From: Candidatus Thioglobus sp.
Lineage (GTDB): Bacteria; Pseudomonadota; Gammaproteobacteria; PS1; Pseudothioglobaceae
Reading direction: 5' to 3'
NCBI GenBank assembly: GCA_028352435.1
Contig: JAOMMB010000003.1
Span: 1 to 64,000 of the forward strand
Length of the DNA stretch: 64,000 bases
This document shows, piece after piece, positions 6,843 through 58,214 of the stretch; position 1 is the first letter of the stretch; every line of letters starts with the position of its first letter. The position numbers were made by a program, and so were the translations under genes. The notes under the pieces were generated by a model, which was not told the origin of the DNA, made no database searches, and worked only from the letters and a program-made list of their open reading frames with translations.

Positions 6843-6930
6843 TGGTGGAGAGTGTGGAATTCGAATCCACGGTTCCGTGAGGAACACTACCTTTCCAAGG
6901 TAGCAAAATAAACCACTCTGACAACTCTCC
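6843..6930 (-). tRNA. tRNA-Ser (anticodon GGA), CCA encoded
   Basis: GGAGAGTTGTCAGAGTGG...CTTGGAAAG...variable arm GTGTTCCTCACGGAAC...GGATTCGAATTCC...ACTCTCCACCA; 88 nt class II tRNA. Confidence 0.95.
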
Positions 6931-7077
6931 GAAGAACATTATTTTACGTTAATATTATCGAAAAACTACCCGTTTAAACAATTTCCAAAAAAAAATTTAC
7001 ATCCAAACCCCCTTTCTGGTTACTTCACTAAATAAGAATTTATACCCTTTGGATAGAAAAGCAATAAAGGATAAAGA

Positions 7078-7195
7078 TTACAAGTATTTTTTTATTCTAT
7101 GAGGCAGGTTGAAAAAAATTTGATTGAGCATAGCAACTACTATGTGATTGAAAAAATTTTACAATCTAACAAAATAGAATCGCAAAAGACGGAGT
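7078..7195 (-). repeat. Copy A of dispersed ~118-bp 3'-end repeat (downstream of metG)
   Basis: Shares TTTTGTTAGATT and CTGCCT boxes, plus a hairpin core, with copies at 10886-11003 and 58097-58214. Confidence 0.85.
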
Positions 7196-7197
7196 AA

Positions 7198-9198
7198 TCA
7201 GCTGATTTTCATGCCTGGTGTGGCACCAGAATCTGGCGATAAAATGTGTAATGATTTGCCATCACCCGCTGCTAAAACCATGCCTTCAGACATGCCGAAT
7301 TTCATTTTTCTTGGTGTGAGATTTGCTACCATTACCGTGAAACGACCCTCTAAATCTTCAGGTGCGTAATGCGCCTTAATGCCTGCAAAGACATTGCGTG
7401 TTTTTTCTTCACCAATATCTAGTGTGAGTTGTAATAATTTATCAGCGCCTTCAACATGCTGAGCTTTAACAATTTTAGCAATGCGTAAATCTATTTTAGT
7501 AAAATCATCAATTTGAATCATATCATCACCCTCTTTTTCTTCATCTTTTTTTACGCTGGTTTGTTTTGAAGCTGCAATCACTTGCTCAATTTGCTCATCT
7601 TCGATGCGCGACATAAGAGGCTTAAACCTATTGATTTTGTGCTTAGTTAGTGGATGCTTAATATCTGCCCAATTAAACGCTTCAATATTTAAAAACTCTT
7701 CAGCTTGATTGGCCATATCAGGCAACACTGGCTTTAAATATGTCATTAGCACTCTGAATAAGTTTAGTGCAAGCGAAGTTACATCATGAACCTGCGCCTC
7801 TTTCCCCTCTTCTTTGATCAATTGCCAAGGCTTATGCTCGTCAATATATTGATTGGCCTTATCAGCCAGTTTCATAATTTCGCGCATGGCTTGATTGTAA
7901 TTGCGCGCTTCATATAACTTAGCAATAACGTCACCTTGGGCAACGAACTCATTGTAAAGCTCTGGCTCGATAGAATAAGCAGATAGTGTCTTGTCAAACT
8001 TTTTGACTAAAAATCCTGCTGAGCGCGAAGCGATATTGACTACTTTACCGACTAAATCAGAATTTACACGTTGCTTAAAGTCTTGAAGATTAAGATCAAT
8101 ATCATCAATTTTAGCTGAAAGCTTATAAGCATAATAATAACGCAAACACTCAGGATTAAGGCTTTCTAAATAAGTTCTTGCTTGAATAAATGTGCCACGA
8201 GACTTGCTCATCTTCTGGCCATTAACCGTTAAAAATCCATGTGCATAAATAGCAGTAGGCGTGCGGTAGTTAGCACCCATTAGCATTGCAGGCCAAAATA
8301 ACGCATGGAAATATACAATGTCTTTTCCAATAAAGTGATACAACTCAGTTTTAGAGTCTTTATCAAAGTATTCGTTAAAGTCTAAACCATGGATATCGCA
8401 CAATTTTTTAAAACTTGCCATGTAGCCGATTGGTGCATCAAGCCATACATAGAAGTACTTATTCTCTACACCAGGAATTTGAAAGCCAAAATACGGTGCA
8501 TCACGAGAAATATCCCATTGCTGCAGTCCTTGCTCGAACCACTCTGCAAGTTTATTACTTACTTCTGTTTGTAAGTGCCCTGCTTCCGTCCACTGCTTTA
8601 GCTGAGTTTCAAACTGAGGCAGGTCAAAGAAATAATGCTCTGAATCTTTAGTAATTGGTGTAGCGCCTGAAACAGCTGATCTTGCATTAATCAGCTCTGT
8701 TGGTGCATAGGTTGCACCACAAGACTCGCAATTATCGCCATACTGGTCTTTTACGCCACACTTAGGGCATTCGCCACGAATAAAACGATCCGGTAAGAAC
8801 ATTTTTTTCTCAGGATCAAATGCTTGAGAAATAGTGCGCATTTTAATAAATCCACTATCATTTAGTTTATTATAAATACCAGAAGAGATTTCTTTATTTT
8901 CTGGACTGTGCGTAGAGTGATATTGGCTAAATCCAATAGAAAATTCTTTAAAATCTGCCTGATGACGCTCACTCACACCCTTGATTAGCTCTTCAGGAGT
9001 AATGCCTAGCTCGTTTGCTTTAAGCATGATTGGCGTACCATGGGCATCATCTGCACAGACGTAATGACATTCATGGCCCATCATCTTTTGAAAGCGCACC
9101 CAAATATCAGTTTGAATATATTCAAGTAAATGACCAAGATGGATTTCACCATTGGCATAAGGCAGTGCAGAGGTAACTAAAATTTTTCTTGAATTCAT
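7198..9198 (-). CDS. metG: Methionyl-tRNA synthetase
   Basis: [24 protein letters not shown] motif, Zn-binding [20 protein letters not shown]-terminal tRNA-binding domain. Confidence 0.97.
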
Positions 9199-10869: not shown

Positions 10870-10885
10870 AAAAACACAATTCTAA

Positions 10886-11003
10886 ATAAAGAGTTTTTTT
10901 TATTTTATAAGGCAGATTTGTTTTTAAGTGAAAGAGTGTAGTAATATCTACACGACTTAAAGAAAAAATAAATCTAACAAAATAAAATGAGAAAAGTCAA
11001 AGC
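10886..11003 (-). repeat. Copy B of dispersed ~118-bp 3'-end repeat (downstream of fdx)
   Basis: TTTTGTTAGATT and CTGCCT boxes identical to copies A and C; hairpin core GTGTAG/CTACAC. Confidence 0.8.
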
Positions 11004-11342
11004 TTAATGGTTTTCAGAGACTTGATTAATGGTGTACTTTGGAATCTCTACCACTAAGTCAGTGTCCCTCAACACTGACTGACAAGATAGGCGCGAATCT
11101 GGGTCTAAACCCCATGCTTTATCTAACATATCATCTTCTATTTCATCAGATTCAGCTAGTGAATCAAAACCTTCACGTACATAAATATGGCAAGTTGTAC
11201 AAGCATTTGACATTTCACAAGCATGTTCGATTTCAACATCGTTTGCAAGCATAGCATTACAAACTGTTTCCCCAGCTTTAGCTTCAATAACAATACCTTC
11301 TGGGCATAAATCATGGTGAGGTAAGATGATAATTTGTGGCAT
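11004..11342 (-). CDS. fdx: ISC system 2Fe-2S ferredoxin
   Basis: CEMSNACTTCHIYV 2Fe-2S motif, RLSCQ; end of isc cluster. Confidence 0.95.
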   Translation of the reverse strand: MPQIIILPHHDLCPEGIVIEAKAGETVCNAMLANDVEIEHACEMSNACTTCHIYVREGFDSLAESDEIEDDMLDKAWGLDPDSRLSCQSVLRDTDLVVEIPKYTINQVSENH

Positions 11343-56189: not shown

Positions 56190-56807
56190 ATGTTAACCAT
56201 TGCACTATCTAAAGGCAGAATTTTAGAACAAACCTTACCTTTATTAAAAAAAGCCGGATTAGAAATCGCTGCCGAAGAGTTAAACTCTCGTAAGCTAATT
56301 CTAGACACCAATCTTGATGATGTTAAAGTTGTTATTATCCGCGGCACCGATGTACCTGTATTTGTGCAACATGGTGCTGCTGATATAGGTATTACCGGCA
56401 AAGATGTTCTGCTTGAACATGGTGCTAATGGATTATTTGAAATGCTAGATTTAGGTATTGCTAAATGTAGACTTATGGTGGCTGCCAAATCTGAAAACTA
56501 CCAACAAGGTAATATTTTAAAAGTAGCAACCAAGTATGTTAAATCTGCAAAAAAATATTTTGAACAAAAAGGTCAGCCTTGTGAAATCATTAAACTTTAT
56601 GGTGCGATGGAATTAGCACCTGTGGTTGGTTTGTCACACTGTATTGTGGATATCGTCGATACAGGCAACACGCTTAAAGCTAATGGCCTTATTCCACTGG
56701 ATCATATTGAAGATATCAGTTCACGACTGGTGGTTAATAGCGCTTCATTTAAAACTAAAAATACAGCGATTAAATCTTGGGTTAATGCTATTGAGAAAAA
56801 CCTATGA
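56190..56807 (+). CDS. hisG: ATP phosphoribosyltransferase (short form)
   Basis: [39 protein letters not shown]. Confidence 0.96.
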
Positions 56808-58096
56808 TCACTAAGCTTTCATCAGCTCAATCAGATTTTCAAGACAACTTAAGTAAGCTTCTTTCTTGGGAAAGTGTATCTAACAATAACGTTGCCAAAA
56901 CTGTGGATGACATTATTGCTAATATTCGTACTCATGGCGACAAGGCCTTAGTTGACTACACCAATCAGTTTGACAGAATGAGTGCTAGCAACATGGGTGA
57001 GCTGACCATCAAAGTATCGACGCTAAAAAAGGCGTTTGACACACTTGATGACAAGCAAAAAACCGCACTAAAAACAGCTGCTGATCGCGTTAATAGTTAT
57101 CATCAAAAGCAAAAACAAGCCACTTGGACTTACACCGAAGATGATGGCACTATGTTGGGCCAAAAAATAACGCCACTTGATCGTGTTGGTCTTTATGTTC
57201 CTGGTGGAAAAGCTGCTTATCCTTCTTCAGTACTTATGAATGCTATTCCTGCCAAAGTAGCGGGCGTTGAAGAACTTATTATGGTGGTTCCAACTCCAGA
57301 TAGCGTTGTTAACCAATTAGTACTCGCTGCTGCTTATATTTCAGGTGTGGATACTGTCTTTACCGTTGGCGGTGCACAAGCTGTTGCAGCCCTTGCCTAT
57401 GGGACGCAAACCATTCCTAAAGTTGATAAGATTGTTGGTCCGGGCAATATTTATGTCGCCACCGCGAAGCGTGTAGTATTTGGCCAAGTTGGTATCGATA
57501 TGATCGCTGGACCGAGTGAAATTTTGATTATTTGCGATGGAAAAACTAATCCTGATTGGATCGCCATGGATTTGTTTTCTCAAGCTGAGCATGATGAAGA
57601 TGCACAATCTATCTTGTTATGCCCAGATGCAGATTTTATCGACCAAGTTCAAGCGAGTATCGCTAAACTATTACCAACTATGGAGCGTAAGGCTATTATT
57701 GCAACTGCCTTAAAAGACCGTGGCGCCCTTATTCTAACCAAAGACATGAATGAGGCAATTGAGATTTCTAATCAAATCGCTCCTGAGCATTTAGAGTTGT
57801 CGGTTGAGGATCCACAAAGCATGCTTGATGGTATTAAGCATGCAGGTGCGATATTCATGGGTCGCCATACGTGTGAATCCTTAGGTGACTATTGCGCTGG
57901 TCCAAACCATGTTTTACCCACATCTGGTACAGCGCGTTTTTCATCACCCCTAGGTGTTTATGATTTCCAAAAGAAATCAAGCTTAATTATGGTGTCTGAT
58001 GAAGGTGCTAATGTTTTAGGTGAAATTGCTGCAACGCTCGCTGATGGTGAAGGCCTACAGGCTCACGCCCAATCAGCACGCTACCGAATAAAATAA
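56804..58096 (+). CDS. hisD: Histidinol dehydrogenase
   Basis: [48 protein letters not shown] overlapping hisG. Confidence 0.97.
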
Positions 58097-58214
58097 CTGC
58101 GTCTTTTTCTCTTCTGTTTTGTTAGATTTTTAAAATTTTCAATCACATAGATTGACTATGCTTAATCAAATTTAATAAAATCTGCCTTACATAAGAAAAA
58201 AACACTTGTTATTC
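58097..58214 (+). repeat. Copy C of dispersed ~118-bp 3'-end repeat (downstream of hisD)
   Basis: Highly similar to reverse complement of 7078-7195; shares invariant TTTTGTTAGATT and CTGCCT boxes. Confidence 0.85.

Follow-up and report, generated by a model that had tools for sequence, protein, structure and literature searches.

What kind of sequence adjoins the 3' ends of genes that share no function? The stretch of DNA analyzed here (the window) comprises 64,000 nucleotides of a Candidatus Thioglobus contig and belongs to an incomplete metagenome-assembled genome (MAG), which totals 0.93 Mb over 44 contigs. On the minus strand, the metG stop codon (TGA, positions 7200 to 7198) is directly followed by 118 nt (positions 7078 to 7195) that the first-pass annotation had described as one copy of a dispersed element, repeated after hisD and fdx. 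BLASTN aligned the hisD copy with the metG copy at 79% identity over 116 nt (E = 1.6e-22; match at positions 58096 to 58209) and recovered the fdx copy as two short pieces only (positions 10971 to 10996 and 10895 to 10918). A covariance model (R1), built from 16 copies that included the three in the window, recovered all three at full length (Table 1), which bears out the description. The bounds of copy A lie a few bases beyond the 118 nt, as the paired outer arms extend into the stop codon and include its last two bases. Orthologous copies occur in relatives at both the hisD site and the fdx site (the latter in genomes G002, G006, G009, and G011). No element was found at the 3' end of tRNA-Ser(GGA), the next gene downstream of copy A, in the window's genome.

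Table 1. Copies of the element in the window, their parts, and neighboring genes.
Feature	Position	Strand	Evidence
Copy A, full hairpin element of 125 nt, after metG	7075..7199	-	Covariance model R1, 124.9 bits, E = 1.1e-20; the R1 training alignment includes copy A
Copy B, overlaps hisD stop codon TAA (58094-58096)	58092..58214	+	Covariance model, 120.2 bits; BLASTN, 79%
Copy C, diverged, overlaps stop codon of the 2Fe-2S ferredoxin gene	10883..11007	-	Covariance model, 86.8 bits, E = 1.4e-13
metG, methionyl-tRNA synthetase, host of copy A	7198..9198	-	PF09334, E = 2e-158
hisD, histidinol dehydrogenase, host of copy B	56804..58096	+	PF00815, E = 1e-173
fdx-like 2Fe-2S ferredoxin gene, host of copy C	11004..11342	-	PF00111 (Fer2), E = 4e-12
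tRNA-Ser(GGA), next gene downstream of copy A	6843..6930	-	ARAGORN
Copy A outer 5' arm GATTAC, overlaps metG stop codon	7194..7199	-	Read from sequence; pairs with 7076-7081
Copy A outer 3' arm GTAATC, complements the 5' arm	7076..7081	-	Read from sequence; helix 1, 6/6 pairs with two-sided changes
Copy A conserved apical core, bottom (folded) strand GATTGA-GCATAG-CAACTA-CTATGT-GATTGA	7122..7151	+	Sequence

To characterize the distribution of the element, we applied the covariance model to 36 genomes of the family Thioglobaceae, which comprises marine sulfur oxidizers. Two-thirds of them (24/36) carry it, while several genera have no copies. The relatives known by name to have the element are Candidatus Thioglobus, SUP05 cluster bacteria, and the thiotrophic symbionts of Bathymodiolus, which points to Thioglobaceae as the family of the window's organism. 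The search for further genomic copies thus yielded 7 in this incomplete genome and as many as 22 in one relative.

The copies are tied to the 3' ends and the orientation of genes, as had been proposed from the three in the window. Grouping by neighboring gene placed 108 forward copies from 100 fetched loci in 37 sites; two pairs of sites share a host RNA gene (rnpB and tRNA-Gln), which reduces the number to about 35. In 30 of them, no more than 12 nt separate the start of the element from the 3' end of a gene in the same orientation. The hosts are 21 protein genes, where the stop codon often falls within the outer arm, together with seven tRNAs, rnpB, and 5S rRNA, so that the placement after unrelated genes extends to RNA genes. 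The tRNA sites (Ser GGA, GCT, and TGA; Met, Gln, Leu, and Glu) mostly begin at the base following CCA. The rnpB and 5S cases amount to independent confirmation, since they were found by asking what adjoins copies that lack an adjacent open reading frame. In a 31st same-sense case, rsmI, the distance is 16 nt. The element runs antisense at three sites, namely, gcvT-gcvH and two singletons, and one further site has no assigned class.

In three genomes, the convergent genes xerD and greA, named by reading their protein sequences, are each followed by a separate copy in the orientation of that gene. In eight genomes, a conserved copy separates nuoD from nuoE, ending 13 to 28 nt ahead of the next start codon, and a conserved antisense copy lies between gcvT and gcvH in nine (gcvH, gcvT, and nuoD were identified by Pfam, and nuoE was named from its sequence).

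Every copy forms a single long imperfect hairpin of about 125 nt. An initial RNAalifold structure spanned only part of this hairpin and was replaced by a 43-pair structure, which was derived from Watson-Crick-only self-alignment, without energy rules, on 111 aligned copies. Under this structure, 85.2% of paired cells were complementary, compared with 67.6% after shuffling and 40 to 50% after sliding. Two-sided changes occurred at 40 of the 43 pairs (covariation score, 0.429 versus 0.153), and 129 two-sided changes were found within orthologous sites. The outer six pairs vary in sequence from gene to gene while keeping their complementarity. The apical stem is 98% paired, and the apical core consists of a 6-by-6 loop with G.A and A.G mismatches around a CATAG/CTATG stem. 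On the bottom strand, this loop sets GATTGA opposite GATTGA, which, judged from the sequence, can stack as G.A, A.G, T.T, T.T, G.A, and A.G.

Mismatches within the helices distinguish the two strands. If a fold of the sense RNA were under selection, intermediates between A-T and G-C pairs would be expected to appear as G.U on the sense strand. We observed the opposite. Counting aligned copies once per site and pair, A.C outnumbered G.T by 213 to 74 (P = 9e-17), and by 137 to 56 when the A-tract region was left out. Watson-Crick-only scoring of helices across 54 column pairs gave 169 to 34, with 27 sites against 2. One-sided intermediates within orthologous sites were distributed 73 to 25 in the same direction, where substitutions in unpaired columns predict a ratio of about 1:1. 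The direction also held in other lineages with enough copies, namely, the gammaproteobacterial MAG nPCRbin5 (23:9), Bacteroidales (94:30), and Candidatus Amulumruptor (12:3). A mismatch that reads A.C in the sense strand becomes G.T or G.U in its complement, and it is accordingly the bottom strand whose pairing is maintained. Predicted RNA folds agreed, with the bottom-strand (antisense) fold more stable at 36 of 37 sites. The strand that is kept foldable is therefore the bottom (antisense, template-side) strand, on evidence that is evolutionary rather than biochemical.

Comparison of orthologous sites indicated gain and loss. The hisD site holds the element in eight genomes and a decayed part in six, and is empty in others; in G010, an ordinary terminator-like hairpin stands at the same position in place of the element. 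Among genomes with a readable flank, the metG site is filled only in this genome (G000) and in G011. At rnpB, the element is present, a relic, or absent depending on the genome, and where present, it comes after a T-run that also ends rnpB in the empty genomes. The 3' half has frequently decayed or been lost at both hisD and rnpB. Most copies are closest to copies at the same site, and some copies at different sites of one genome are 93 to 94% identical; dispersed near-identical copies also occur in nPCRbin5. Taken together, these data show the pattern of an old mobile family in which many sites are fixed. At metG, divergence between filled and empty intergenic regions prevented the definition of a target-site duplication, and no replication-strand bias was apparent in G002 (replichores assigned from GC skew).

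Three further observations concern the copies and their surroundings. Tandem pairs, abutting or within about 15 nt of each other, were seen at five loci (L160, L167, L213, L221, and L239), among them a near-exact 124-bp tandem in G014. Several copies (L015, L018, L019, and L376), located at hisD, rnpB, and elsewhere, share an insert of about 27 bp, ACCCCTCAAGGGGGTACTGAACCGAGT, in the 5' arm; this insert is a second small repeat nested in the element. Finally, the match to the metG C terminus is broken by stops or shortened in several other Thioglobaceae genera (L310 to L313 and L315), with a tRNA-Ser nearby, and it is possible that metG in those genera has lost its C-terminal tRNA-binding domain.

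Beyond the observed dispersion, exact 3'-end placement, hairpin, covariation, and strand asymmetry, we give a probability of roughly 50% to the reading that these copies form a nonautonomous, palindromic family of mini-insertions of about 125 bp, located at gene 3' ends in gene orientation, with the bottom strand selected to fold. The bottom strand would form a long hairpin whose unpaired or noncanonical loops are conserved, and this folded single-stranded DNA may be what a recombinase or transposase reads in trans, in the way that integron attC sites or REP hairpins are read. Such recognition would drive the spread of the element and maintain its fold. Several results count against this reading: the examined Y1 transposase genes have no adjacent copy, several element-rich genomes have only two tyrosine recombinases, no target-site duplication could be delimited, and G002 shows no replication-strand bias. 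In addition, a purely selfish element has no need of the pairing that is kept at orthologous sites long after insertion; such long persistence of the fold where the element is fixed may mean that it is still active or that it serves the host.

The alternatives differ in which molecule folds and whether folding matters. A domesticated 3'-UTR hairpin, cotranscribed on the sense strand and protecting or processing the 3' ends of RNAs that include tRNA, rnpB, and 5S rRNA, would account for the sense orientation, for the abutment on mature 3' ends of several RNA classes, and for a fold kept within orthologous sites. However, the A.C mismatches break the sense RNA and spare the bottom strand, the antisense fold is the more stable one, and at many orthologous sites the element is missing or has decayed, with no substitute structure in its place. 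We consider this reading unlikely, and the RNA-stability element suggested in the first-pass annotation is disfavored along with it, given that the helix is kept on the bottom strand instead of the sense strand, which is the one transcribed. A structured RNA transcribed from the bottom strand, antisense or trans-acting and with its 3' end facing the gene end, agrees with folding of that strand, and the tandem G.A-type loop and the conserved bulges resemble structured RNA. It is nevertheless distinctly unlikely. No promoter-like signal was detected for the bottom strand (3.9 mismatches versus 3.7 in shuffled flanks), and the short nuoD-nuoE gap leaves no room for a promoter. In addition, the asymmetry was alike at sites with a convergent downstream gene (100:31) and at those with a codirectional one (99:36), which led us to reject antisense RNA arising from convergent genes. 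For these three reasons, we prefer single-stranded DNA over antisense RNA as the folded molecule. A known RNA family was also rejected, as the element gave no Rfam match exceeding the gathering threshold, whether in the window or in the searched loci of Thioglobaceae, other gammaproteobacteria, Bacteroidales, Amulumruptor, and Desulfobulbus.

It is also possible, but quite unlikely, that the palindromes are functionless: selfish insertions with arms kept complementary by template switching (quasipalindrome correction). Quasipalindrome mutation can generate two-sided changes, and the frequent decay at hisD and rnpB, where the 3' half has been lost, fits neutrality. Yet such correction should erase A.C and G.T equally, so that a strand-specific excess of A.C is left unexplained, as is the conservation of the 6-by-6 loop. 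Least probable by far is the atypical transcription terminator that had been put forward for the metG copy. Like an intrinsic terminator, the element is a hairpin at gene ends, and it sits between convergent genes; the canonical terminator-like hairpin at the hisD position of G010 points the same way. In contrast to an intrinsic terminator, it has no U-tract after the stem, spans about 125 nt with conserved internal loops, and is conserved inside operons: terminating copies in nuoD-nuoE and gcvT-gcvH would be predicted to silence essential downstream genes. The rnpB copy, moreover, follows a T-run that is already there in empty sites. Among the three natures first suggested for the element, the REP- or MITE-like one thus comes nearest.

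Within the preferred reading of a mobile hairpin, known systems provide points of comparison. Integron attC sites are imperfect palindromes of 57 to 141 bp. Their folded, active strand is the bottom one, and their structure is conserved over a variable sequence (PMC2727003). The element resembles them in being an imperfect palindrome placed directly 3' of genes in sense orientation, in conserving structure over sequence, and in its bottom-strand folding, here deduced from the A.C/G.T asymmetry and fold stability. It differs in that the R-box pattern RYYYAAC/GTTRRRY was found in 0 of 108 copies and in that there are no cassette arrays; its hosts are chromosomal housekeeping genes in conserved order. 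Furthermore, the element-rich genomes G006, G014, and G011 have two tyrosine recombinases only, the number expected for XerC and XerD; in G006 and G014, these are two proteins each, counted with the PF00589 model. An integron was rejected on the absence of R boxes from all copies and on these recombinase counts.

The REP superfamilies GTAG and CGTC with their RAYT transposases (PMC3733652) were the other main comparison. Like REPs, the copies are extragenic palindromes scattered through the genome, mostly located after coding regions, and CGTC occurs near one end in 57 of 108 copies, inside the lower stem. Y1 transposase genes are commoner in element-bearing genomes (16 of 24) than in element-free genomes (2 of 12), a correlation not corrected for phylogeny. 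In contrast to the 20- to 40-bp REP palindrome with its unpaired GTAG or CGTC tag, the element is a single hairpin of about 125 nt; it has no stem of 8 to 9 bp beside the tag, and head-to-head dimers are not the rule. Nor do the examined Y1 genes have an adjacent copy (61.7 kb around 20 Y1 hits, 19 in Thioglobaceae and 1 in Desulfobulbus). Other palindromes flank them, and for these genes a flanking RAYT was rejected as the autonomous partner. Small palindromes with a core like GGCAAGGCC lie on both sides of the Y1/RAYT-like genes of Thioglobaceae (MSIRKI...EYYHVFNRGVDKR; L354 to L370); their arms differ between loci and match at both ends of one element, which makes them a second palindrome family with variable yet complementary arms. 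The MITE-like sequences ERIC, NEMIS/Correia, and YPAL share the size of the element and are likewise near-palindromic, intergenic, and noncoding. Unlike them, the element is fixed within a few nucleotides of gene 3' ends in one orientation, and its center rather than its termini is conserved; the terminal arms vary by site yet remain complementary. No partner transposon was found. On the preferred reading, the element would work somewhat like attC or REP sequences, but it lacks defining features of both.

The apical core, TCAATCRCATAG...CTATGCTCAATC, recurs outside the family within different outer arms. Two Bacteroidales MAGs have about 35 exact cores per genome each, and the core also occurs in nPCRbin5 (11) and Candidatus Amulumruptor (4). 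One Desulfobulbus MAG and two further gammaproteobacterial MAGs carry the core as well. A scan of 369 evenly sampled gammaproteobacterial genomes turned up the exact core in no family other than that of the window. A core this rare and patchy across phyla suggests horizontal movement. The exact core pattern had no match in viral contigs, and an element of viral origin was rejected on that basis. Literature searches on the core sequence and on palindromes in SUP05 returned no paper from the collection covered. In Bacteroidales (e.g., L042 to L156), the core-bearing sequences are high-copy intergenic hairpins, often at contig ends, with no tie to gene orientation. We tentatively suggest that the element may represent an undescribed class of single-stranded DNA hairpins found in several phyla, with the folded bottom strand as the mobile form and no integron integrase involved; in Thioglobaceae, such hairpins would be targeted precisely to gene 3' ends, irrespective of the type of RNA encoded.

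The usual explanations for dispersed palindromes in bacteria are chance tolerance in spacers, transcription termination, and mRNA stability. Here, placement is exact across mRNA, tRNA, rRNA, and ribozyme genes, and evolution reveals which strand folds. Hairpins of this kind should accordingly not be read as 3'-UTR RNA without a strand test. The finding poses a directly testable question, namely, which enzyme reads the folded template strand at gene ends. Should a recombinase acting apart from integrons prove responsible, the known range of recombination systems that use folded DNA would grow.
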